From an uncultured bacterium (lineage in GTDB: Bacteria; Bacillota; Clostridia; Oscillospirales; CAG-272): a DNA stretch of 39,904 nt. The stretch is taken from contig CAMEJM010000014.1 of the NCBI GenBank assembly GCA_945920215.1, positions 1 through 39,904 on the forward strand. The letters are read 5' to 3'. The notes below the pieces were generated by a model. The model saw nothing but the letters and a program-made list of their open reading frames with translations. It was not told the origin of the DNA and ran no database searches. The position numbers and the translations under genes are program-made. Positions 11,659 through 39,904 of the stretch are shown here, piece after piece. The number at the start of each line of letters is the position of its first letter. Within the stretch, counting starts at the first letter, position 1.

Positions 11659-12131
11659 GTTCCGTGCCGCTATCCCCACCGGGCGAGGGAGAGGTGATGC
11701 AGAAGCCACCTTTCAAGCCGTGAATCGTACCTCCGTACGATGAGGCGCGGAAAGGCGGCTAAAAATGCGCACAAATGAAGAAAAGCGGCTTGCGCCGCTT
11801 TTCAACCTTAAAATATTGTTTCAACAGAACATTGTAGTTGTCGTCTCAACTATGCCCATAAAACTATTCTTGCGCATTTTGGTCTGCGCAGCTCTCACCG
11901 CCCGGAAAGCGCGCGGCGGCAGAGTGGTGCGGAATCCCCACCCGCGCAGGCGTCGGCGTACAGGCGTACGACAGTCCAAGCGGGCGGGGATAAAAATGCT
12001 CATCAAATGAAGAAAAGCGGCTTTCGCCGCTTTTCAACCTTAAAAATGGCTTCGATAGAACACTGAAACTGCCCTTAACACAATGCAATTACAAATTAAC
12101 ACCGCGCATTTTGTTCCGTGCCGCTATCCCC
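11655..12131 (-). repeat. Right boundary block of the island (inverted copies R1 and R2)
   Basis: Two tandem copies of the left boundary element, both inverted: R1 about 11690-11895 and R2 about 11915-12131. The block is delimited by identical 23-bp direct repeats at 11655-11677 and 12109-12131 (core GTGCCGCTATCCCC). Each copy has the hairpin GAAAAGCGGC/GCCGCTTTTC (11779-11802, 12012-12035), the GCATTTTTA block and a long hairpin around CGTAC/GTACG. The outer stem differs in R2 (CCCCGCCCGC with its partner) yet still pairs. No gene is supported here; R2 begins just after the aspS stop and its hairpin may terminate aspS. Confidence 0.7.
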
Positions 12132-24058: not shown

Positions 24059-24086
24059 TACAGTCGAATCGTGCGCGCTGTGCAAC

Positions 24087-24292
24087 TATATTTGCCTGAC
24101 GGCAAGTAAGATGCCTGTCGGCGTGATATTCCACTTCGTGGAGTGATATTTCGCCTGTCGGCGAAGTTCAGGCAAATATAATATCTCTTTCGCCGCAAGG
24201 CGAAAATATCGTTTTGCAAAGCAAAATATCACTTCGGCGCAGCCGAAATATCTCTTTCACCGTAGGTGAAATGATCACTGCTTGCAAAGCAA
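24087..24292. repeat. Hairpin array 1
   Basis: Nine small hairpins with 3-4-base loops, e.g. TTCGCC-TGTC-GGCGAA (24150-24165), TTTCGCC-GCAA-GGCGAAA (24188-24205), TTTTGC-AAA-GCAAAA (24212-24226), TTCGGC-GCA-GCCGAA (24233-24247) and TTCACC-GTA-GGTGAA (24256-24270). Spacers read GTGATATT in the left part and AATATCNC in the right part. The left four hairpins are enclosed by a 13-bp perfect inverted repeat, TATATTTGCCTGA (24087-24099) with TCAGGCAAATATA (24168-24180). This unit recurs inverted in array 2. No gene lies in this stretch. Confidence 0.85.
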
Positions 24293-24356
24293 TCTCTCTT
24301 TGTTTAGAGCATAAGCGCAGAAGAAATTATGTTATCCATAACTATAATGGTGTGCA

Positions 24357-24731
24357 ATGAGTGAGAGCATTTTAATAAAGAAAACAAAAGAGTTTGCCAA
24401 AAACATTGTTGTATCGATTCGTGAAATTAAGGAAAGCAAAAGAGAAAACGTGTTGACAAACCAGCTTTTGCGTTCCGGTACAAGTATCGGTGCAAATATT
24501 CACGAGGCGCATTATGCTCACAGCGCTGCTGATTTTATTGCCAAACTTGAAATTGCACTCAAAGAATGTTTTGAAAGTGAGTATTGGCTACAGCTTTTAT
24601 TTGAAACAGGCTATTTAAGTAGCGAAGAATACAAAAGACTTATCAACGATTGCGGGGTCATCAGAAGAATGCTTATTTCATCCTGCAAAACTTTGAAAGA
24701 AAGAGAAAATGAATTGCATCCCATAAAGTGA
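24357..24731 (+). CDS. Four-helix-bundle protein (S23 / 23S rRNA intervening-sequence protein family)
   Basis: The 124-residue helical protein has family marks KTKEFAKNIV near the N-terminus, NQLLRSGTSIGANIHEAHYA (about 36-55) and SEYWLQLLFETGYL (about 73-86). S23 proteins (PF05635) were first found as ORFs in intervening sequences of 23S rRNA. They share the fold of Avd, the accessory protein of diversity-generating retroelements, and are thought to bind nucleic acid; no reverse transcriptase is present here. A TATAAT at 24343-24348 ends nine bases before the ATG and no ribosome site is visible, so the mRNA may be nearly leaderless. The gene is much AT-richer than its neighbours, a sign of transfer. 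It sits 65 bases after hairpin array 1. Confidence 0.88.
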   Translation: MSESILIKKTKEFAKNIVVSIREIKESKRENVLTNQLLRSGTSIGANIHEAHYAHSAADFIAKLEIALKECFESEYWLQLLFETGYLSSEEYKRLINDCGVIRRMLISSCKTLKERENELHPIK

Positions 24732-24844
24732 GCATTATATACCTAACCTTTACATAAATAGCGAGAACATAGTTTTCTATCAGTCTCACTTTTTATGTCT
24801 CCATTCCAATAATCAACCAATCTGCTCATTCAAGGAGACCTGTC

Positions 24845-25441
24845 ATGAAACGTGTGACTGCCCTCTTGCTCGGCGCTGTCCTTGCGTTGGCGGCGCTTCT
24901 GTCTTTTGCCGCCTGCGGCAAAAAGGAACCCGCCCCCACCTATTCCAACTTCGTCACCATCGAGGTGCAGGACTACGGGGAAATGCGGATTGAGCTGTTT
25001 CCCAGATATGCCCCCATGACGGTGGCAAATTTTCAGAAGCTTGTCAGCCAAGGCTTCTATAACGGTCTTACTTTCCACCGTGTTATCCCGGGTTTTATGG
25101 TTCAGGGCGGCGACCCCCTCGGGAACGGTACCGGCGGCTCCCCCAATACCGTCACGGGAGAATTTGCAAGCAACGGTTATACCAACCCTATGACCCACAA
25201 ACGCGGCACCATTTCGATGGCGCGAAGCAACGATTATAACAGCGCTTCCAGTCAGTTCTTTATCGTGCATAAGGATTCCCCTCACCTTGACGGCGAATAT
25301 GCCGCGTTCGGCAGGATCGTAGACGACGAGAAGTACTGGGAGACCCTTGATAAGATTGCCGCCGTTCAGACGGATCTCAGCGAAGGCAAAGGCGGCAAGC
25401 CTCTGACCCCCGTGGTGATCACCCGCATTTATTTTTCATAA
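24845..25441 (+). CDS. Peptidyl-prolyl cis-trans isomerase, cyclophilin-type lipoprotein
   Basis: A 198-residue cyclophilin with a lipoprotein signal: basic start MKRV, hydrophobic core, and lipobox SFAAC with the lipidated Cys near residue 24. It should sit on the outer face of the membrane and speed folding of exported proteins. The domain shows GLTFHRVIPGFMVQGGDP (catalytic Arg in FHRV), the Ser-rich SASSQFFIVH and YAAFGRI. AAGGAG precedes the ATG. It is closely related to the cytoplasmic copy at 29827 and lies between hairpin arrays 1 and 2. Confidence 0.93.
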   Translation: MKRVTALLLGAVLALAALLSFAACGKKEPAPTYSNFVTIEVQDYGEMRIELFPRYAPMTVANFQKLVSQGFYNGLTFHRVIPGFMVQGGDPLGNGTGGSPNTVTGEFASNGYTNPMTHKRGTISMARSNDYNSASSQFFIVHKDSPHLDGEYAAFGRIVDDEKYWETLDKIAAVQTDLSEGKGGKPLTPVVITRIYFS

Positions 25442-25454
25442 GCCTCATAACCAT

Positions 25455-25505
25455 TTGCGCAGTATCGGCTCAGTTACCCTCACGCCGGTGCTGCGCAATT
25501 CTGTT
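25455..25505 (+). terminator. Terminator after the PPIase lipoprotein gene
   Basis: TTGCGCAG (25455-25462) pairs with CTGCGCAA (25491-25498), with inner CGGC/GCCG; a T-rich tail follows. Confidence 0.75.
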
Positions 25506-25582
25506 TCTTTTCCTTATACGAAGCAAACCCGGATATTCAAACGAAATGCAACGTATCCACACCGGGATTTCTTGGGTCTATC

Positions 25583-25790
25583 TTAGCCCCCCCGGAGGGA
25601 GCCACGTCAGCCTCCCTCATCGAGAAAACGATATGCGCGGCGCTCTCTTTGCCTCCATTATCGAGGGAGGGAGCCTATGGAAAACAATGAAAAAGAGGGG
25701 CGGCAAAACCGCAGTTTCCATAGGGATTTTAGTAATAAATAAAATATAGCACACTATACTTCGCAGTCGCGAAACGTAGTGTGCTTTTTT
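25583..25790. repeat. Composite palindromic element (MITE-like)
   Basis: Contains GGAGGGAG and CCTCCCTC inverted blocks (25588-25672), then CCTATGGAAA (25674-25683) pairing with TTTCCATAGG (25715-25724), then AGCACACTA (25748-25756) pairing with TAGTGTGCT (25777-25785) around an inner TTCGC-AGTC-GCGAA hairpin, followed by T6. Blocks of the GCTCCCTC...GAGGGAGC kind are common dispersed palindromes in Oscillospiraceae; another lies near 29391-29410. No transposase is present. The last hairpin could terminate transcription. Confidence 0.5.
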
Positions 25791-25821
25791 GTCCACAAAA
25801 GACTATTGCGTTAAGTTATAT

Positions 25822-26023
25822 TTTTAGCCTTGCGGCTAAAAGTGTTATGCAAAGAGCTTGCGTTATATTTTGACTTTCAGTCAAAGTGATATTATATTTG
25901 CCTTAACTTCCCCGACAGGGAAAATATCACTTTGCGTTAGCAGAATATCACGCCGACAGGCATATCACTTGCCGTAAGGCAAATATAGTTGCGGAGTAGC
26001 GATAATCACTATCGCTACTCCGC
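25822..26023. repeat. Hairpin array 2
   Basis: Eight hairpins, e.g. TTTTAGCC-TTGC-GGCTAAAA (25822-25841), TTTGACT-TTC-AGTCAAA (25869-25885), TTCCC-CGACA-GGGAA (25908-25922), and a last long one of 14 bp (25991-26023). Spacers include GTGATATT and AATATCAC. 25893-25987 is a diverged reverse-complement copy of array 1 unit 24087-24180, enclosed by its own 13-bp perfect inverted repeat TATATTTGCCTTA/TAAGGCAAATATA. No gene lies here. Confidence 0.85.
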
Positions 26024-26044
26024 TAAAGGCGCAGCCCTGTTGGG

Positions 26045-26101
26045 TTTCTCATCTGAGTTTCCTCATTTGAGATTTTCCATTTGAGAGATTCAATTTGCGT
26101 T
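26045..26101. repeat. Short decaying tandem repeat
   Basis: Four imperfect 14-base units around CTCATCTGAG, CTCATTTGAG, CCATTTGAG and CAATTTGCG follow array 2. The first two are small palindromes. Confidence 0.4.
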
Positions 26102-26125
26102 TTCAGATTTCCGCCGTACGGGCAA

Positions 26126-26260
26126 TCAGAAGTTGTCGATCGGCAGAGTCTGAATTTTTTCGATTGTGGGTTCGCTGGTGGCGATCACATCCTGTGCGTC
26201 AAACGCAATGATCTCTACCACAGGGGTCGTATAATCGGGAGTATTCTTCATATCTTTCAT
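26126..26260 (-). CDS. Small conserved-type protein (44 aa) after the GLUG protein gene
   Basis: The peptide starts MKDMKNTPDYTTPVVEII and continues with FDAQDVIATSEPTI, ending PIDNF. The pattern P-x-[VL]-E-I-I-x-F-x-x-x-D-V-I-x-T-S is one I have seen in many short unannotated Clostridia proteins beside surface or secreted protein genes. GGGAAAGGGG precedes the ATG at 26260, and the start is 21 bases past the stop of the large secreted protein, so they share an operon. No membrane span or signal peptide. Function unknown; a RiPP-like precursor or a secretion-linked regulator would fit the size, but nothing proves either. Confidence 0.6.
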   Translation of the reverse strand: MKDMKNTPDYTTPVVEIIAFDAQDVIATSEPTIEKIQTLPIDNF

Positions 26261-26281
26261 CTCTGTTTCCCCTTTCCCGTT

Positions 26282-28969
26282 TTACTGCATTGCATACGCT
26301 CTGACAGCGTACATATAAATGGCGGCTGCTTTTGCAAGATTCTGAACTTCGACGGTGTACTCGTCATTGAGATAGAGTGCGAGGAAGTTACCGACGGAAT
26401 AAGTCCCGGTTGCCAGCGAATTGCCGTCGCTGTCAAGCAGCGCCAAGGTCAGCTCGTTGAGCAGCATCCCTGCGTGCAGGTCGGTCACGGTCGCTTCGCC
26501 GTCTACAAACTCGTAATCGTAATTCTGGTCGTCAACAGTGACTCTCAGTTTCGCCGCGCTCTGACCTTCTTTCAGCTTCAGCACCATGTTCACGCTGCTG
26601 TCCAAGTTGGCAGCCACCGTCACGTATGTGTTGAGGTCAGCCGCAGATACGCCCGAAAGCGTCATTTTAGAGGCATTGTATCCGCTGACGTCAATGGTGC
26701 CCTCATAACCGGTCGCAGCTATGAAGTCCGCAATCGCGGTGGAGGAGCCGTATCTGTTGATCTGTGCGGCGTCCACATATCCCACCATGCCGATCAGCAG
26801 CTTCTGTAAAGCGGCGGTGCCGCCGTTGTACATACGTTGTGCGTAAGCCATCGGAGAGTAAGCTTTGATCACAAGCGACTCATAGGTAATTTCGTTCACA
26901 GTTACTGCAAGGTGATAGTCACGGAGCTCTGCCATGTCAGCTGCACTGATGCCGCCTACCACAAAGGTGTAGTAGCCCTCGGTTTCATTCAGCACTCCCG
27001 CAAAGGTGTTGCCCAAATTGTCCTTGAGTGCAACGGTCGCGCCGTCCACACTGGGCATCTTCGCCGCAGCAAGCTTCATGTTCAGCGTCATCTCACCGCC
27101 GAGCGACAGGGTCGCACCGGAGAGAGCCAGCGCAAAGGTCATCTGCTCGGGAGCAGTGGTTCCCTGCACCCAAGGTGCATAACCATTTGCTTTGGCGTAT
27201 GTATTCAGCTTGCCGAGCACCGTCCCGTCGGTCAGATCCGATGCGTTACCCGTGGTCAGCACTGTGGTATAACCGGTTCCTGTCGTATCATATGCGGAGT
27301 AGACGCTCTCCTGTGCTGTTCCTTTCACGGTTGCCGTCACAAGGAACGAACTGTCAGTGGTATTAAGATTGTATACAACAGTCTTCGAACTTACTAGGCT
27401 TGAAGGAGAGAAGATCGCCACTCTGCCGCCTGCCTTCGAAACGGACAGGTCCGCTTTCATATACGAATTCTTGAAAGCAATGTTATAGGAAGATTTGTTG
27501 CCTTGAGAGAGTTTCGCACAGCCGATGACCGCAGCTGCATAGTCTGTTGCCGTAACGGTACCCATGAGAATGCCGTTGTTAAACGTCAGCGCAGCGGAAC
27601 CGTAAGCGCTTTCCAAATACCCGGCAAACAAACCGGCATAACTGCCGCTCGCCGTCACGTTGCCGTAATTGGCGCAGTTATTTACCACAGGGTCGATCGC
27701 GGCCCAAGCCTGCCCGCTGAGATAACCACAAAAACCGCCCACGTAATCCGCGCCGCTGATATGACCGAAGTTGGCGCAGTTGGTTATCTTAATTGCCGGT
27801 TTGATGCCGGTTGCCCTACCGATCAGACCGCCTACGTTGCTTCCCGCAGTGACATTGGCGCGGTTGACGCAGTCGGTCATCACAATTGTTGTATCCGTGC
27901 CGCCTCCGTTGCCCGCGTATGCCAATATACCACCCACCGTTGCAGCAGCGCCCGCATCAATGGTACCGGTGTTTTCGCATTCACTGATTGTGAAGGTCTT
28001 TATGCGATTTGTATAACCGATAATGCCGCCCACCTGACCGTCTGCAGCGGTCGTAGTCGTGGTGAGAGCCCCGGTGTTGCGGCACCCCTGAACGGTAACT
28101 TTGTTAATAAATGCAGAGTCGCCGTTGGATATGTCACCGACAATGCCGCCCAATCTTGCCGCCGTAGAGGTGATATTCGCCGTATTCACGCAATCGGTAA
28201 TAGTAAAAATACCCAAAGAAGAATTGGAACAACCCAAAATACCACCGCACGTGGAGGTCGCTGTTATGGCGCCGCCAAAGGAGGACTTGTCGATAGTAGC
28301 GCCTGTCGTTGCGCTCGCCACACTTGCATAGGTCACAAGTCCGCCGACCGTCGTTCCGCTCAGCGTAGAGTCGTACACATGGCAGTTTCTGATGACAGCT
28401 CCGTCGGTCAAGGATACGGCAAAGGTTGCAGCAGTCCCTTGGGTCGTAAGATTCAGCCCGCGGAGGTTCATATTCTCAACCGTGCCGTTTATGGTATTGA
28501 ACAAAGCGTTGGTTGCACTGCTTGAGGACGAAGAAGAAATCACAAGATTGTAAAGAGTGTACTCTCCGCCGTCAAGGTAGCCGGAGAAGACCTGCCCTCC
28601 GCTCAAGGCGGAAAGCGCATTCATCGTACTACCGTCCTCGCCCACATAATTCACGTCGTTGAAATACAGGTCAGCGGTAATCTTATAATACTTGCCCGCT
28701 GTCGTTTCAGCGGTCGCGTTGTTGCGGAAATAGACAAAGTCGCCGGGCGTTTGGATCAAATACGGCGTTGCTTCCGCCCCGTCGCCCTCCAAAGTCTCGG
28801 AGACCGTGCCGTCCCAAACAGTCGCACCACCGGGCAGTGCTGTTGCCGTTCCGGGCACGTACTCATCTGCGCTCGCGGTCACGCCAAGGGCGACCACCGC
28901 GCTCATCAGCATTGCCGCGACAAGGACAAGGCTGAAGAGTCTGCTCACTTTTCCGTTTTTCTTTTTCAT
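26282..28969 (-). CDS. Large secreted protein with GLUG-type repeats
   Basis: An 895-residue exported protein. It starts MKKKNGKVSRLFSLVLVAAM with a signal peptide cleaved near VTASA-DE. Residues about 60-110 form an entry domain (ATPYLIQTPGDFVYFRN) seen before GLUG repeats. About 190-470 holds six or more repeats of the type [CN]-x-N-x-[GA]-x-[IV]-x-A...[VI]-G-G-[ILF]-[IVL]-G-Y, as in CENTGTIDAGAAATVGGIL, expected to form a beta helix. The C-terminal 280 residues are a Clostridia-type domain (LSLGGEMTLNMKLAAAK). There is no LPXTG or dockerin, so anchoring is unclear. GAGAGG eight bases before ATG 28969 decides the start over a GTG at 28978. Confidence 0.85.
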   Translation of the reverse strand: MKKKNGKVSRLFSLVLVAAMLMSAVVALGVTASADEYVPGTATALPGGATVWDGTVSETLEGDGAEATPYLIQTPGDFVYFRNNATAETTAGKYYKITADLYFNDVNYVGEDGSTMNALSALSGGQVFSGYLDGGEYTLYNLVISSSSSSSATNALFNTINGTVENMNLRGLNLTTQGTAATFAVSLTDGAVIRNCHVYDSTLSGTTVGGLVTYASVASATTGATIDKSSFGGAITATSTCGGILGCSNSSLGIFTITDCVNTANITSTAARLGGIVGDISNGDSAFINKVTVQGCRNTGALTTTTTAADGQVGGIIGYTNRIKTFTISECENTGTIDAGAAATVGGILAYAGNGGGTDTTIVMTDCVNRANVTAGSNVGGLIGRATGIKPAIKITNCANFGHISGADYVGGFCGYLSGQAWAAIDPVVNNCANYGNVTASGSYAGLFAGYLESAYGSAALTFNNGILMGTVTATDYAAAVIGCAKLSQGNKSSYNIAFKNSYMKADLSVSKAGGRVAIFSPSSLVSSKTVVYNLNTTDSSFLVTATVKGTAQESVYSAYDTTGTGYTTVLTTGNASDLTDGTVLGKLNTYAKANGYAPWVQGTTAPEQMTFALALSGATLSLGGEMTLNMKLAAAKMPSVDGATVALKDNLGNTFAGVLNETEGYYTFVVGGISAADMAELRDYHLAVTVNEITYESLVIKAYSPMAYAQRMYNGGTAALQKLLIGMVGYVDAAQINRYGSSTAIADFIAATGYEGTIDVSGYNASKMTLSGVSAADLNTYVTVAANLDSSVNMVLKLKEGQSAAKLRVTVDDQNYDYEFVDGEATVTDLHAGMLLNELTLALLDSDGNSLATGTYSVGNFLALYLNDEYTVEVQNLAKAAAIYMYAVRAYAMQ

Positions 28970-29174
28970 GATGTACACCTCTCTGTGTTCTCAGTGGTTT
29001 CGCAAAAAATGAATCTATATGACTTTTTTCCCTGCGCCGCTTCCGCTTCAGAAGCGGGCAACGAAAAAGCAATATACAGAAGTATGTAGAGTGTGAATAA
29101 AATATGTACTCTCCACTCCCGCGCGCTATATTATATATAAAACAGTACGCAAATGTACGCGATTGTCGCGTATA

Positions 29175-29318
29175 ATGGAAAAAATACGTTTCTGCATCAA
29201 AACAGATTTGTGCAAATTGTACAACGACCCGTCATACCGCAATTTGCAGAGCTTTCTGCAAGTCCGGGAGCAGGAGAAAGAACTGTTTTTATACGATTCC
29301 GCACTCATGAATGCGTAA
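29175..29318 (+). CDS. Possible small protein (47 aa), doubtful
   Basis: Starts MEKIRFCIKTDLCKLYND and ends DSALMNA. The charged helical composition looks protein-like, but no ribosome site precedes the ATG. TATAAT at 29171-29176 overlaps the start codon, so it would have to be truncated at its 5' end or read from a TTG upstream. It may be the remnant of a larger gene. Confidence 0.25.
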   Translation: MEKIRFCIKTDLCKLYNDPSYRNLQSFLQVREQEKELFLYDSALMNA

Positions 29319-29781
29319 TTTTCTGCGTTTTTACCAAATGCTTCCGTTCTTCCATATGTCGGAGCAACTCCGGCTGCGGGTGCGTGCGCATGGCTCCCTC
29401 GGTGAGGGGGCTCATTCATTAACGGACGACTTCTGCACTTTTTAAAAGCACGCCTGCGTACTTGCCTACACTTTTCTTTGAGTTTATTATAATAATATTT
29501 CGAAACATTTGATACGTTATATTAACGTATCGCATGCAAATTGTAGCAAATTGACGGCAAACAAGGATGTGATTTGTATATCTTGTACGCGTATTATGCT
29601 CTCCTGCAGCAAAGGTTTTCCGGGAGAACGCGCAGTAGCCGCCGGGGGGTAGCTTCTCCTATGTGCTATCCCTTGCCGTCCATACGCTGCATTATATGCG
29701 CTGCGCGGTAAAAATTGTGTCGAAGTGTGAGAACCTGCAATCCTTATTCGCGTGTTTAATGCGGCGCACTATACAGAAATC

Positions 29782-29805
29782 CCCCGGCTGCCGCGGCAGC
29801 CGGGG
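29782..29805 (-). terminator. Terminator after the second PPIase gene
   Basis: A perfect 11-bp stem CCCCGGCTGCC/GGCAGCCGGGG with a two-base loop, 20 bases past the stop. Confidence 0.75.
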
Positions 29806-29826
29806 AAAATACGGATTCTGAGCCGC

Positions 29827-30300
29827 TTACGCCAGATACATCCGGCGGATCACCTGCGGGATGCGGGGTTTATCGCGCAGATCGGTCTGCACCGAAGCGA
29901 TGCGGTCCACCGCCTCCACACCCTCCGTCACTCTGCCGAACGCGGCGTACTGCCCGTCAAGGTAAGGGGCGTCCTCGTGCATGATGAAGAACTGGCTGGA
30001 AGCCGAGTCCGGCATGGAGGAACGCGCCATGGAAATCACGCCGCGGGTGTGCTTTAACGTGTTCTGTGGGAAGCCGTTGGCGGCAAATTCACCGGGGATC
30101 GTCTCATCGGAGCCGCCCATACCGTTCCCGAGGGGGTCGCCGCCCTGAATCATAAAGCCCGCTATCACGCGGTGAAAGGTCAGACCGTCATAAAACCCTT
30201 CTTTCACCAGCTTTTCAAAATTCGCAACGGTTTTGGGGGCATATTCCGGGCAAAGCTCGATTTTCACGACGTCCCCGTTCTCCATTTCCATAATGACCAT
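29827..30300 (-). CDS. Peptidyl-prolyl cis-trans isomerase, cyclophilin type
   Basis: A 157-residue single-domain cyclophilin without signal peptide, so cytoplasmic. It has GLTFHRVIAGFMIQGGDP with the catalytic Arg, the conserved SASSQFFIMHEDAPYLDGQ and YAAFGRV. It is closely similar to the lipoprotein cyclophilin at 24845, so the two form a cytoplasmic/extracytoplasmic pair. GAAAGGA precedes the ATG. The 348 bases between this gene and the next (30301-30648) are divergent upstream DNA in which I see no further gene. Confidence 0.93.
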   Translation of the reverse strand: MVIMEMENGDVVKIELCPEYAPKTVANFEKLVKEGFYDGLTFHRVIAGFMIQGGDPLGNGMGGSDETIPGEFAANGFPQNTLKHTRGVISMARSSMPDSASSQFFIMHEDAPYLDGQYAAFGRVTEGVEAVDRIASVQTDLRDKPRIPQVIRRMYLA

Positions 30301-30648
30301 CGTATGTGTTCCTTTCCGTCTCGCCGTCCTTTTTTCCCGCTTTTGAGTGGCGGGATAATCGGCGATTCCTATACATATACTAAATCAAAATTCCCGCGCC
30401 GTCAACCGTTTTTCATTCTCTGACCCGGCGGCAGCGCCCCCGGCGCTCCCGGCATGGCCGCCGCACTGCGGTGGCATGGTCTTTCCGGGAGAGCATTTTC
30501 ACGGTGTGGAGCCGAAAAACAAGCGTTCGCGCCGTCCAACGCGCTAAATGACGGCGGGCGGCGGGAATACGGCACGGCACCCCCTCGCGTTGCCCGCACG
30601 GTGCGCGGGGAGACAGCGGAATGCCTGACGGGAAAGGAGGCACGGAAC

Positions 30649-31767
30649 ATGGACGGAAAGCCGAAAAAGAATGTGCGCGACTGGGCGGCGTGGCTTCTCT
30701 GCATTGCCTTCGCCTTGGTACTCGCATGGCTGTTTTTCCGATATATTTTCGGGCTGCTCCTGCCCTTCCTCGTGGGCTGGGCGCTCGCGTTTTTGGTGCG
30801 CCCCGCCGCGGCGCGGGTCGGGAGGGGCACCTGTATTCCCAATCGGGTTCTGCGGCTCATGTTTGTCCTCGCCGCGTTTCTGGCGCTCGGTGCCGGCGTG
30901 GTTCTGCTCGGCGTGCGAGGTGTGCGGGAGCTGCAACGGCTGCTCGCGGCTCTGACCTCCGGGGGCGGCGCCCTGCCGCCGACCTTGGAAACCCTGACGG
31001 CGCGCCTGCGCGCACTCGGCGGGGATCGCGCCGTGGCATACTTGCAGGAGTTTATCAGCGGCGCCATCCGCGCTCTGACAGGAGTGCTGCCGGGTCTTGT
31101 CGGCAGGCTGATCTCCGGGGTGCCCCGCATTGTACTGGCGCTGGCGGTCACGCTGATCTCCGCCGTCTATTTCTGCCTGGATCTGGAGCGCATCAACGCC
31201 GCCATGCTTTCTCTTTTGCCGGACAGTTGGAAAAAGCGGGTCACCTCCCTCAAAAACGGGATTCTCCGCATGGCGGGGAAATATCTGCGCTCCTATCTGA
31301 TTTTGATGGCGATCACCTTTTCCCTCTTGCTCCTCGGCTTTTTGGTCATACGGGTGGAGTACGCGGTACTGCTCGCCTTTCTCATCTCGCTGGTAGACCT
31401 GTTCCCCGTCCTCGGCGTGGGGACGGTGCTGGTGCCCTGGAGCCTTTTTTGCTTTATCAGCGGGGTGCCGGGGCGCGGCGTGGCGCTGCTGATCCTGTGG
31501 GGCGTGGCGCTCATCATCCGACAACTGACCGAGCCGCGGGTGCTCGGCGGCAGCCTCGGGGTCCCGCCCCTGCTGACCCTGCTCGCCATGTATGCGGGGC
31601 TTCACCTTATGGGCGTGTTCGGTATGCTGCTTCTGCCCGCCCTGTGCGTGCCGTTGGCTTCCCTGCTGCGCACGCTCAAAGGCGCGCCTCCCCCCGCGCC
31701 GGAGTCCGAGACTGCACAGCACCGCGCCCCGCCCTCTTCTGCCGACGGCGCAAAAAGGCACGTCTGA
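30649..31767 (+). CDS. AI-2E / YtvI family permease
   Basis: A 372-residue protein with seven or eight membrane spans, of the AI-2E transporter family (PF01594). Clostridial members include YtvI, a sporulation membrane protein; which one this is cannot be decided here. Typical features are paired N-terminal spans with FGLLLPFLVGWALAFLVRP, a large polar region (about 95-145), and C-terminal LVDLFPVLGVGTVLVPW plus LTEPRVLGGSLGVPPLLTLL. AAAGGAGG seven bases before ATG 30649 fixes the start; the open frame extends to 30454 but without a ribosome site. The short tail is rich in Pro and Ala. Confidence 0.85.
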   Translation: MDGKPKKNVRDWAAWLLCIAFALVLAWLFFRYIFGLLLPFLVGWALAFLVRPAAARVGRGTCIPNRVLRLMFVLAAFLALGAGVVLLGVRGVRELQRLLAALTSGGGALPPTLETLTARLRALGGDRAVAYLQEFISGAIRALTGVLPGLVGRLISGVPRIVLALAVTLISAVYFCLDLERINAAMLSLLPDSWKKRVTSLKNGILRMAGKYLRSYLILMAITFSLLLLGFLVIRVEYAVLLAFLISLVDLFPVLGVGTVLVPWSLFCFISGVPGRGVALLILWGVALIIRQLTEPRVLGGSLGVPPLLTLLAMYAGLHLMGVFGMLLLPALCVPLASLLRTLKGAPPPAPESETAQHRAPPSSADGAKRHV

Positions 31768-31899
31768 ATCCTCCCTGCTCCCCTCTGTTTTCCTCCCCTG
31801 TCCGTCACGGTGCCCCGCGAATGACAAAAAATGCGCAAAGCACTTCCCCTGCACGAAAAAGTGTGCTATAATACCCAAAAACATCGGCGGAGGGCGGAT

Positions 31900-32739
31900 A
31901 TGGATTTCAATCGTTCGATTTTTGAGAACAGAAAGGCGCTGGGGCGCCCTTTTCTGGCAGCGCACAGAGGGGTTTGCGGAGCCAATATCCCGTGCAATAC
32001 GCTTGCGGCGTATCGGATAGCCGTTCATGCGGGCGCGGACGTGGTTGAAATCGACGTCAGCAAGAGCCGGGACGGCAAATACTTCGTGTTTCATCCGGGC
32101 ATGGAACCGGTGTTCATTCAATGCGGGCGGTATCTGAGCGATATGACCGCGGAGGAGATACAGCAGTTGACGCTCCGTAATTCCGACAGCGTGCCGACCC
32201 ACTATCGGATCCCCACCTTGGCGGAGGTGCTGGCGTTTTTGAAAGACAAGGTCTATATCAATGTGGATAAATTCTGGACGGACGTGCCCGGCATTACGGA
32301 AGAGATCCGCAAGGCGGGCGTGGAGAAGCAGGTTATCGTCAAAACCTACGCGGATGAAAAATCGTGGGACGAGGTGGAAGCCTACGCGCCCGATCTGATG
32401 TATATGACAATGGCGTGGCACAAGGACGAGACCACCGAAAAACTGGCAAAGAGAAATATCCGTTATATCGGTATCGAAGCGCTGTTTGACAAAGAGACGG
32501 ACGAGATCGCGTCGGACGAGTATATCCGCTCCATGCACGAAAGAGGGCTGCTTATCTGGCACAACGCCATCGTGTACAACGAGAAAGACGTCATTTCCGC
32601 CGGTCATACCGACGACGTCTCTTTAACCGACGACCCGGCGCTCGGCTGGGGATGGCTTGCGGATAAGCAGGCGGACTTCATTCAGACCGATTGGCTGTCG
32701 GAGTTGAAATCGTATTTGGAGAAAAGGGAAAACCCGTAA
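31900..32739 (+). CDS. Glycerophosphodiester phosphodiesterase family protein (atypical)
   Basis: A 279-residue TIM-barrel protein of the GDPD family, which cleave glycerophosphodiesters. The start of the active site, FLAAHRGVCGANIP, and VVEIDVSKSRDGKYFVFHPG are clear. Two usual residues differ: the family E-N-T reads C-N-T here, and the second His is followed by Pro rather than Asp (H-P for H-D). Related Clostridia proteins share these changes as far as I recall, so this is a subfamily, possibly with another substrate. GGCGGAGGG before ATG 31900 decides the start, and TATAAT at 31867-31872 is a likely -10. No signal peptide, so it acts inside the cell. Confidence 0.8.
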   Translation: MDFNRSIFENRKALGRPFLAAHRGVCGANIPCNTLAAYRIAVHAGADVVEIDVSKSRDGKYFVFHPGMEPVFIQCGRYLSDMTAEEIQQLTLRNSDSVPTHYRIPTLAEVLAFLKDKVYINVDKFWTDVPGITEEIRKAGVEKQVIVKTYADEKSWDEVEAYAPDLMYMTMAWHKDETTEKLAKRNIRYIGIEALFDKETDEIASDEYIRSMHERGLLIWHNAIVYNEKDVISAGHTDDVSLTDDPALGWGWLADKQADFIQTDWLSELKSYLEKRENP

Positions 32740-32841
32740 GCCGGCTTTCACGGATTCCCTCTTTATGACAAATCTATATCCTGTAACTTCCGTTGCGGGA
32801 AGCCGCCGGTTCGTCCCCCAAAATATTTTTTGTGTTGGGTA

Positions 32842-32870
32842 TTGCATTTTCCGGCTGGCTATGATATAAT
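32842..32870 (+). promoter_or_regulatory. Promoter of rpmB
   Basis: TTGCAT (32842-32847), 17 bases, TATAAT (32865-32870). Confidence 0.75.
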
Positions 32871-32953
32871 GACCTCTGCTGTTTAGCGATTTATTGATTG
32901 ATTTGATATAAAAGCGGCGTCGTGAGACGCGAATGTTTCAGGAGGTGTTCGAA

Positions 32954-33139
32954 ATGGCAAAGTGTGAGATTTGCGGCAAGGGCATGGTGTTCGGCAACAC
33001 TGTATCCCACTCCCACCGCAAGACCAACAGAACCTGGAAGCCCAACATCCGTCGGGTGAAAGCAGTTGTCAACGGTAACCGTCAGAGCGTGTATGTCTGC
33101 TCTCGTTGCCTGCGTTCCGGAAAGATCGAGCGTGCGTGA
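32954..33139 (+). CDS. rpmB: 50S ribosomal protein L28
   Basis: A 61-residue bL28. It has [10 protein letters not shown] and [14 protein letters not shown], two Cys pairs of the zinc-binding type of L28, with [18 protein letters not shown] between. AGGAGG precedes ATG 32954; a longer reading from 32933 is not needed. It is transcribed alone, from a near-consensus promoter to a terminator at 33199-33240. Hairpin array 3 begins 150 bases on. Confidence 0.96.
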
Positions 33140-33198
33140 GTCGTATGCCTGACGGTTTGCCCGCGGCAAGCCCAAGCGAAAAGTGAAGATCGCTTCAA

Positions 33199-33246
33199 AC
33201 AAGTTGCAAAGTGCTTCTTTTCTGTGCTTTGCAGCTTGTTTTTATT
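33199..33246 (+). terminator. Terminator after rpmB
   Basis: AACAAGTTGCAAAG pairs with CTTTGCAGCTTGTT (one mismatch), followed by TTTATTTTT. Confidence 0.85.
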
Positions 33247-33296
33247 TTTCGGTTTAGCCTTTGCGGGAGGTCTTGTACTCTGCCGCGAAGTAAGGT

Positions 33297-33614
33297 TGCT
33301 TGGCTCACGCAAGCAGTGATATTTTCACCTACGGTGAAAGAGATATTTCGGCTATGCCGAAGCGAGATTGCTTGCCGGCGCAAGCAGTGATATTTTCACC
33401 TGCGGTGAAAGAGATATTTTGCTTTGCAAAGAGATATTGTTTGCTGTCGCAAACAGTCGAAGACGGTGATTGAAAATCAACTTTTCCTTATCTCCGCGAA
33501 GCGGAATATCTCTTGCCGTCAGGCAAATATCACTTCGCGAAGCGAAATATCTCTTGTCGTGAGACAAATATCACTTTGTCCACCGGGCAAAATGTTACTC
33601 CGCCGTCAGGCGGA
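33297..33614. repeat. Hairpin array 3, the longest (13 hairpins)
   Basis: Thirteen hairpins: 33297-33315, 33323-33339, 33347-33361, 33369-33386, 33394-33410, 33418-33430, 33438-33455, 33493-33505, 33513-33526, 33534-33546, 33554-33567, 33575-33591 and 33599-33614. Stems are 5-7 bp (TTTCACC, TTCGGC, TGTTTGC, TCCGC, TTGCC, TTCGC, TTGTC, TCCGCC) and loops 3-4 bases, up to 7 in the first. Left spacers read GTGATATT or GAGATATT; right spacers read AATATCTC or AATATCAC. The polarity switches at 33456-33492. No gene is supported in 33140-33723 outside rpmB's terminator and this array. Confidence 0.9.
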
Positions 33615-33654
33615 ATATCGCCACGCTGCGCCGCGGCGCTTCTCCCCTGCCCAC

Positions 33655-38791: not shown

Positions 38792-39904
38792 TCAAAGGGT
38801 GATCGTCCCGTCGGTACAATAAACTTTCTTGATGCATCCATTCCAGTGATTCTCTTTGGAGATGGCTTTCCATTTCGCTTTTGTACCCTTGTAATTCACC
38901 GAGGTCAAGCCCGTGCAACCCTTGAACGCACCATTCCCGATGCTCGTCACGCTGTCCGGGATGGTGATGGAGGTCAAGCCCGTGCAACCGGAGAACGCAT
39001 ACATCCCGATGCTCGTCACGCTGTCCGGAATGGTGATAGAGGTCAAGCCCGTGCAATGGGAGAACGCACCACTCCCGATGCTCGTCACGCTGTCCGGAAT
39101 GGTGATGGAGGTCAAGCCCGTGCAATGGGAGAACGCACCACTCCCGATGCTCGTCACGCTGTCCGGAATGGTGATGGAGGTCAAGCCCGTGCAACCGGAG
39201 AACGCCCAGTCCCCGATGCTCGTCACGCTGTCAGGGATGGCGATAGAAGTCAAACCTTCGCAGTCCTTGAATGACCGATATTCAATTGCCTTAATTGGCT
39301 TGCCTTTCACATACGGCGGAATGACGATTGCTCCCCCGTTGCATGCTCTTATTTTTTTCTCATTTGCGCCGACAATGCTCCACCCTTGCGGGCTTTTTTT
39401 CAATTCCAGTATTTTTCGAATCTGTTTCTCGGTAAAATAGGCTTCTTCCGTATGTTTGAGAGCCTCATATTTTTCCTTTGCCCTCACAACGGTGGCTTCA
39501 ACTCCGGGATAGGCACCCCAGTCATTCAATTCTTGTATGATCTCTTGGCATTCGGCACTCAATCGGGCATTGTCAAGTCTCGCACATATCGTCTTGTAGC
39601 GCTTTTGTTTGACCTGCTCCGCCCGCGAGGTTGCCTGCCGGAGCAGCGCGGCAGCGTCCCGGTAATCCCCGAGCGTCCCAAACAACTTGGCGGCTGACGC
39701 ACACTGTACTTCCGTTTGCGCCTCTTGCAGCATTGTACAAGCCTTTTGATATGTCGGCAGTTTTTCCATATGTACAAGTGCTTCCGCTTTCTTTTGGTCC
39801 GCGTCCTTATAGCCCGGAATCTTCGCAAATATCCCGGCAGCCTCTTGGAAGGCGGCTTCGTCCTCTGCGGCTTCAAAAGAGTGCACGCCGTCTAAGTAAA
39901 TCTC
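38792..39904 (-). CDS. BspA-type leucine-rich repeat protein (N-terminus cut by window end)
   Basis: At least 370 residues; the frame is open to the window edge, so the real start lies outside (a GTG at 39886 has no ribosome site). The visible N-terminal half is helical, with repeats of the F-x-x-I-x-G-Y-K-D-A type (IFAKIPGYKDADQKKAEAL; LFGTLGDYRDAAALL), resembling TPR-like stretches after zinc-ribbon or membrane segments in Clostridia. From about residue 190 come five 23-residue LRR_5 repeats, GLTSITIPDSVTSIGSGAF-like, closing with YCTDGTITL. Such repeats often mediate surface adhesion; no anchor or signal is visible in this part. Confidence 0.85.
   Translation of the reverse strand, partial: EIYLDGVHSFEAAEDEAAFQEAAGIFAKIPGYKDADQKKAEALVHMEKLPTYQKACTMLQEAQTEVQCASAAKLFGTLGDYRDAAALLRQATSRAEQVKQKRYKTICARLDNARLSAECQEIIQELNDWGAYPGVEATVVRAKEKYEALKHTEEAYFTEKQIRKILELKKSPQGWSIVGANEKKIRACNGGAIVIPPYVKGKPIKAIEYRSFKDCEGLTSIAIPDSVTSIGDWAFSGCTGLTSITIPDSVTSIGSGAFSHCTGLTSITIPDSVTSIGSGAFSHCTGLTSITIPDSVTSIGMYAFSGCTGLTSITIPDSVTSIGNGAFKGCTGLTSVNYKGTKAKWKAISKENHWNGCIKKVYCTDGTITL
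38901..39245 (-). repeat. Five 69-bp tandem repeats coding the LRRs
   Basis: Units begin at 38901, 38970, 39039, 39108 and 39177, each one 23-residue LRR. Units 39039-39107 and 39108-39176 are identical base for base, and the others differ at few positions. This favours copy-number change by slippage or recombination. A diverged unit follows from 39246. Confidence 0.9.

Follow-up and report, generated by a model that had tools for sequence, protein, structure and literature searches.

Hairpin arrays on inverted heptamer repeats in an uncultured Clostridia bacterium and their association with IVP genes

Here we describe three intergenic hairpin arrays in a 39,904-nucleotide stretch of DNA from an uncultured bacterium (Bacillota; Clostridia; Oscillospirales; CAG-272), which comprises positions 1 to 39,904 of contig CAMEJM010000014.1 in assembly GCA_945920215.1 and is referred to below as the window. 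The arrays are laid out around inverted repeats of seven bases (heptamers), and one of them leads into a gene for an IVP (S23-like) four-helix-bundle protein. We consider it probable that such arrays form the structured portion of small selfish elements that go with an IVP gene and have inverted heptamers as their framework, the gene-less copies being non-autonomous. The features concerned are the following.

24087..24300, + strand: array 1, a two-sided hairpin array, leader of the IVP gene
24087..24097, + strand: arm X (TATATTTGCCT), which can form a local pairing with GGCAA or a long-range one with X''; read from the sequence, with relatives of the same layout
24170..24180, + strand: arm X'' (AGGCAAATATA), exact reverse complement of X; read from the sequence
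24357..24731, + strand: IVP gene, PF05635 / TIGR02436 four-helix-bundle protein of 124 aa; profile match, PDB relative 2rld (E 8.6e-28)
25710..26023, no strand: gene-less family B element, with array 2 inside at about 25814-25990 and copies in L040, L055, L070 and L072
25750..25789, no strand: terminator-like hairpin within the family B element; read from the sequence, conserved in the copy alignment
25991..26023, no strand: terminal 14-bp hairpin of the family B element, both arms of which change in step between copies
33297..33622, no strand: array 3, of the looser family C; its left half spans 33297-33455 and its right half about 33493-33614

Structure of the arrays

All three arrays are genuine and lie well beyond what chance would produce. 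An original prediction had placed hairpin series with variable, self-paired stems at 24087-24292, 25822-26023 and 33297-33614, and direct reading bears it out. Its counts of 9, 8 and 13 hairpins are reasonable but not exactly reproduced, as a strict finder (stem of at least 5, loop of 3-6, zero mismatches; shorter stems are missed) returned 8, 5 and 12, with two of the 12 in array 3 appearing spurious (GAAAA..TTTTC and GACAAA..TTTGTC). All dinucleotide shuffles fold worse than the arrays themselves, with z-scores of -4.8 for array 1 and -8.3 for array 2 (0/200 shuffles as good in each case) and -9.1 for array 3 (0/100). The pattern AATATCNCTT has 119 matches in the genome, and the same pattern read backwards has 3.

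Read directly, the joints between hairpins in the window are nearly constant (ATATCNC / GNGATAT). Constant linkers with variable self-paired stems had been singled out as the reverse of repetitive extragenic palindromes (REP) or of clustered regularly interspaced short palindromic repeats (CRISPR); this is indeed the key feature, the joint being constant and the parts between joints being variable hairpins, but the linker is constant only within one element, and between elements the joint word changes on both halves together. Of the 50 distinct units that lie between ATATCNC joints in the window and the 36 fetched stretches, 34 had a stem of at least 5 bp; over 50 rounds of shuffling, this number averaged 4.2 and never exceeded 8. 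Among unit pairs differing at exactly one stem position, which are not independent of each other, both sides had changed in 15 and one side in 9, in keeping with the earlier suggestion of selection on structure or a copying mechanism. Two features absent from that prediction are that each array is two-sided, with reverse-sense joints on the left and forward-sense joints on the right, and that an IVP gene adjoins array 1.

The prediction knew no name for these arrays. This is wrong in part, because the Rfam family Gut-1 (RF01706) matches all three above its gathering score. A match to a known repeat family was one of the outcomes that the prediction itself had named as refuting it, and in this respect it is partly refuted. 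Their covariance scores (51.2, 50.8 and 50.5 bits) lie narrowly above the gathering score of 50. The matches are:

24083-24154, + strand: array 1, above gathering score
24201-24280, - strand: array 1, sub-threshold
25919-25991, - strand: array 2, above gathering score
33501-33576, - strand: array 3, above gathering score
33360-33442, + strand: array 3, sub-threshold

In the source genome (1.59 Mb), 51 Gut-1 matches were listed, 14 of them over the cut-off, from scoring 150 of 266 first-look candidates. The arrays resemble Gut-1 in their three consecutive hairpins and GUGAAAU-type joints. They differ in belonging to a dispersed element that has two sides, heptamers that change and a link to IVP genes. 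Gut-1 itself, a 77-position piece, is treated in passages of the original description as probably a noncoding RNA, seen in human gut sequences only (Weinberg et al. 2010, PMC2864571). This orphan RNA of three hairpins turns out to be a fragment of a larger element. The highest Gut-1 scores of the source genome belong to two long, internally repetitive arrays (L067:2511-2974 and L070:18-439), which are 97% identical over 359 bp across two contigs.

Dispersed copies and insertion in terminators

Comparison of 36 stretches around array places with each other and with the window revealed that the arrays of the source genome belong to dispersed elements of about 300-350 bp, the copies of which form families with conserved ends. 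Family A comprises L041, L042, L043, L046, L047, L048, L052, L053 and L071, of which L043 and L071 diverge at one end; family B, the window element at 25710-26023 with L040, L055, L070 and L072; and family D, second copies in L041 and L053 together with L049, L050, L056 and L066. The looser family C includes array 3 of the window. L046, L052 and L053 share 95-98% identity over 324-355 bp, yet their flanks are unrelated. What families A, B and D have in common is that one end carries a terminal hairpin and the opposite end a hairpin of the TTCCC..GGGAA type; several stems vary between copies with both arms still matched, as in the terminal hairpin of L072. In eight fetched stretches (L054, L056, L060, L068, L070, L071, L073 and L074) the array reaches a contig end or stops no more than about 60 bases short of it, as expected because the arrays are repeats. 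Within single loci, a four-hairpin block is repeated with an 87-bp super-period and 18 unit matches at G002:C22:44216-44657, pointing to growth by block duplication, and L058:1787-2370 holds a 361-bp direct repeat of 96% identity that is related to window 11696-12116 (73% over 438 bp).

Many elements sit inside the stems of host intrinsic terminators. Directly outside the aligned ends, host sequence supplies an A-tract and one stem arm on one flank and the complementary arm and a T-tract on the opposite flank, as in the split terminator of L046 (AAAAAGTGACCCC..GGGGTCACTTTTT). Eighteen copies were entered in a test of the flanks outside the aligned ends, which a script located in 14 (L052, L055, L070 and the family D copy of L053 were left out of the count). 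The flanking inverted repeat scored at least 9 in 10 of the 14 and 5-7 in the other four, while 14 of 180 cross pairings scored at least 9; the observed total was reached by 0 of 20,000 permutations. An earlier inverted-repeat control, in which mismatched pairs averaged 9.8 and real ones 8.1 (39 clusters), was dropped as unsuitable because its windows still contained element sequence.

The terminator of rpiB offers a comparison between genomes, 30 loci having been fetched from the 67 genomes with a match, not all of them classified. An element lies inside the terminator stem both in the source genome and in the best-scoring relative, G016, with differing heptamers. Array-like sequence is found nearby in L112 and, by eye, in L120 and L136, and the terminator is plain in L117, L118, L124, L131, L133 and L137.

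The heptamers

The joint is a 7-mer that varies by locus (ATATCAC, ATATAAC, ACTTCAC, GCTTCAT, ATTTCAT, CAATTCA, CATCATT, TTTAGCT, TCATAAC and others), and the heptamers of the left half are reverse complements of those of the right. A heptamer occurs at least three times in the right half at 51 of 95 loci; in an unbiased test its reverse complement was present in the left half at 40 of these 51, compared with 134 of 2474 for words taken from other loci. A separate linker finder sought reverse-complement pairs, so that pairing was built in and only the order of copies is informative: left copies all came first in 60 of 64, out of 80 array-like loci tried. When arms were cut in heptamer phase, 2.55 of 5 positions were paired (shuffles: mean 1.41, at most 1.73), a weaker test than that on unit stems, as the heptamers are out of phase with the stems.

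Thirteen ACTTCAC-type leaders align in the order X, X', left heptamers and hairpins, X'', right heptamers and hairpins. RNAalifold predicts 29 pairs for them, with two-sided changes in 12, and favours a local X:X' hairpin and left-right heptamer pairing over X:X''. An exact long-range stem of at least 8 bp with a span of 50-170 is present in all 59 selected array loci, and one crossing the midpoint in 58 of 59, compared with 81 of 295 chimeras, a figure raised by shared heptamers. In 9 of 11 loci that follow a tRNA, one arm of the terminator is present a second time (7-15 exact nt) between the left and right heptamers; by eye this copy extends to the complement of the tRNA's CC(A) in seven, and in L088 and L093 the stem also includes the tRNA end. 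One candidate source of such arms is fold-back copying of host DNA during insertion, but relatives without the element show ordinary terminators at rpiB.

Heptamer usage differs between genomes. The source genome holds 23 ATATCAC pairs and 0 ACTTCAC pairs, its relative G016 0 and 36. In a comparison of genomes picked after the counts were known, those in which an IVP leader of the ACTTCAC type was observed (G011, G014, G016 and G032) have 72, 155, 36 and 85 ACTTCAC pairs, and those where none was seen (G000, G013, G034 and G036) have 0. A strict one-to-one rule between heptamer and resident IVP gene was rejected, as ATATCAC does not obey it.

Among tandem runs beside IVP genes of Bacillota and cyanobacteria (best of periods 4-12, score at least 13 or at least 14), 60 of 64 have period 7, the other four being 11, 11, 8 and 8. 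By set, these are 14/14 runs in the genus (9 of 31 loci), 10/10 in further Clostridia loci lacking a dense array (7 of 27 loci), 20/22 in Bacillota (16 of 29 loci, three of the reading frames having been misplaced by script) and 16/18 on plasmids (12 loci, 11 of them cyanobacterial, picked from 30 records). Control windows contained a tandem run in 20 of 1080 cases, 14 of period 7. Nine of the 12 plasmid loci have an exact upstream/downstream inverted repeat of 13-27 bases; no such long repeat was seen at the plasmid loci L255 and L261, and in Pseudanabaena L250 both heptamer runs have the same sense. L268, L273 and L280 show an intermediate form with tandem heptamers of both senses upstream of the IVP gene.

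IVP genes beside arrays

Both IVP genes of the source genome adjoin arrays. The second (the C2 copy) lies behind tRNA-Trp and its terminator and has Gut-1-type joints, GTGAAAT/ATTTCAT. IVP genes occur in 58 of 69 genomes of the genus, and 21 of 31 loci show at least 4 hairpins per 200 bp within 400 bp upstream, compared with 5 of 62 far windows (up to 800 bp); at L083 a clear array is undercounted by the strict finder. From the best 80 of at least 572 further Clostridia relatives, 75 had enough upstream sequence, and a dense array precedes the gene in 47 of these; the corresponding figures are 10 of 260 for control windows and 6 of 77 for downstream regions. An exact upstream/downstream inverted repeat of at least 14 was found at 6 of the 75 loci and in 0 of 75 shifted pairings. 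A same-strand tRNA end lies within 420 bp upstream of 45 of 100 IVP genes and 3 of 461 control windows, and in the tRNA-linked examples the element mostly starts a few bases past the tRNA's terminator. In the portion of the open-access literature searched, no paper was found that ties IVP genes to hairpin arrays or terminators.

Across the 22 good genomes (at least 90% complete, at most 5% contaminated), and with ancestry not removed from any of the figures, the Gut-1 count correlates with the number of IVP genes (rho 0.60, p 0.003; 0.36 in all 69 genomes), in contrast to RAYT tyrosine transposases (rho 0.13, p 0.55; 0.21) and reverse transcriptases (rho -0.35, p 0.11; -0.15). The two good genomes without IVP have 1 and 2 Gut-1 matches. 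Because the count tracks IVP and neither of the other two, IVP is the best candidate partner of the elements; no enzyme is assigned to cutting and joining.

Among side observations, one relative's contig carries three IVP genes within 7 kb (L267:1-9001; heptamers ACTTCAC for two and ATTCCAT for one), and plasmid IVP genes lie twice between cas6 and cas4 (L250 and L254, cyanobacterial plasmids) and once between ribonucleotide-reductase genes. Elsewhere in the window, 24992-25314, which falls in a cyclophilin-type gene (24845-25441), matches 29933-30261 in the opposite sense at 73% identity, and 38901-39253 is a tandem repeat (period 69, 5.1 copies, 91% matches) overlapping the long open frame 38792-39886.

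Discussion

The best reading is that these IVP/heptamer elements are akin to the intervening sequences (IVSs) of 23S rRNA. In passages of one account, IVSs are selfish inserts that take the place of a tetraloop in a helix of 23S rRNA; their ends are complementary, they carry an S23 frame, and their origin is called unclear. The same account gives a toroidal pentamer for a solved relative of S23 and mentions heptameric repeats upstream of the Coxiella S23 reading frame (PMC4990558). The likeness extends to the S23/IVP frame, carried by array 1 and the C2 copy (the gene-less copies are without it), and to complementary ends and insertion in a hairpin loop (10 of 14 split terminators, though not cleanly at the window's three arrays). 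The location differs: IVSs occupy 23S rRNA helices, whereas our elements lie in or behind terminators and tRNAs, with the window arrays between protein genes, the C2 copy behind tRNA-Trp and none of these in a 23S rRNA helix. Here, moreover, variable hairpins space the heptamers and both halves stand upstream of the gene. Because the rRNA location fails, we do not call the elements 23S rRNA IVSs; by analogy, they are best read as working like IVSs outside rRNA.

A gene-bearing copy, often just behind a host terminator, runs X, its short local partner X', left heptamers and hairpins, the distal partner X'', right heptamers and hairpins, IVP gene. Gene-less copies, about 300-350 bp long in the source genome and many of them inside a terminator stem, would be its non-autonomous forms. 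We hypothesize that the IVP protein reads its own heptamer, that the hairpins space and protect the heptamer sites, and that the IVP-heptamer complex may let the element be copied into hairpin loops, where insertion would do little harm because the host stem can still form. Dispersed copies and the plain terminators of relatives suggest that the elements are mobile.

Several observations weigh against this account. No insertion event was observed, and the search for a clear target duplication at element ends found none. A cleanly split terminator is missing from all three arrays of the window: the flanking repeat of array 2 scores 5, and arrays 1 and 3 have undefined ends. By the thresholds used, neither array nor inverted repeat is present at 23 of the 75 Clostridia IVP loci; an IVP match is absent from 11 of 69 genomes, five of which (G030, G038, G044, G057 and G063, 57-85% complete) hold 13-22 Gut-1 matches. 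G013 and G036 have 41 and 55 ATATCAC pairs, yet no ATATCAC IVP gene was seen there. The correlation between genomes ignores ancestry, and for the Coxiella 23S insert the passages cited state that the S23 protein is probably not made (PMC4990558).

Other explanations account for parts of these data. The arrays might be cis-regulatory RNA leaders that control or protect the IVP mRNA, for instance through autoregulation by IVP binding, with the gene-less copies as decoys or relics; their position upstream (47/75) and not downstream (6/77) of the gene and the two-sided changes in 12 of 29 predicted pairs agree with this. Gene-less copies with conserved ends at unrelated loci, inside terminators, and inverted heptamers flanking the IVP gene on both sides in other lineages are not covered by a leader alone, and we regard this explanation as unlikely. 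Highly improbable is a free-standing noncoding RNA, as which Gut-1 was first filed. Rfam classes Gut-1 as a small RNA (sRNA), and it is a likely noncoding RNA in the passages cited (PMC2864571), but the identical layout serves as an IVP-gene leader with changing heptamers and variable hairpin numbers, and there are many dispersed copies per genome. That slippage and templated palindrome correction built the arrays in place, by local mutation only, is extremely improbable and largely refuted as a full account, although such events may act additionally. Quasipalindrome correction, the templated correction of palindromes, is an established process and some arrays do grow in blocks (G002:C22, 18 unit matches, 87-bp super-period); near-identical elements with shared ends at unrelated places nevertheless require copying between loci.

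REP/REPIN, BOX-type repeats and miniature inverted-repeat transposable elements (MITEs) are short, intergenic, palindromic and multi-copy, as our elements are, and have a conserved hairpin; in our elements it is the joint that stays constant and the hairpin that changes, and they have no linked transposase, RAYT alone having been tested. Movement of REPIN-like elements by a RAYT enzyme on single-stranded DNA, an already weak idea, is improbable. Hairpins suit such enzymes and the source genome has one RAYT-like gene (NF047646, 58.5 bits, cut-off 80). This gene (L140:1456-2232; G000:C5 about 32086-32388) is below curated cut-offs, and no array was seen next to it within the 2 kb that were read. 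RAYT matches occur in 27 of 69 genomes, 0 over the cut-off, and 12 of the 22 good genomes have none, including G011 with its 42 Gut-1 matches (rho 0.13). The conserved REP hairpin and RAYT gene of REPIN systems are thus lacking, the hairpins varying and RAYT being weak and unlinked in the source genome. As for MITEs, element copies share ends, but the two ends differ and no target duplication is established; searches covered only RAYT and reverse transcriptase and identified no transposase beyond RAYT. The identical repeats and unrelated spacers of CRISPR are likewise absent, self-paired hairpins standing between the joints. A reverse-transcriptase route, by analogy with Avd of diversity-generating retroelements or with group II introns, is very improbable: IVP proteins are related to Avd (profile matches for L081; PF05635 is said to resemble Avd in passages of PMC10053308), but RVT_1 matches occur in 11 of 69 genomes and not in the source genome, and correlate negatively with the Gut-1 count in good genomes (rho -0.35).

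More broadly and more tentatively, the IVP/heptamer elements could belong to a class of minimal selfish elements of bacteria that would include those of Bacillota and cyanobacteria at least. An IVP protein and an inverted heptamer code, together with host enzymes, would be enough for such elements to spread into hairpin loops, whether of terminators, tRNA trailers or rRNA helices. Every lineage would read a heptamer of its own, the Clostridia arrays would be the hairpin-spaced form, and the class would account for Gut-1, 23S rRNA IVSs and the excess of heptameric repeats. Heptanucleotide repeats called STRR exist in cyanobacteria. Heptameric repeats are described as over-represented in bacteria, and those of Xanthomonas and Nostoc resemble ours as intergenic tandem heptamers, often in inverted pairs in Xanthomonas, but differ in being treated as G-quadruplex repeats; the searched passages of that paper make no mention of S23 or four-helix proteins (PMC4692102).

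If true, the heptameric repeats that have lacked an explanation would have the same cause as an orphan RNA of Rfam and a protein family whose function is unknown. How 23S rRNA IVSs spread, an old question, could then be put to the test with a small protein for which both the heptamer and the type of target are defined, and heptamer switching, as between ATATCAC in the source genome and ACTTCAC in G016, would be a natural experiment in the co-evolution of protein and nucleic acid.

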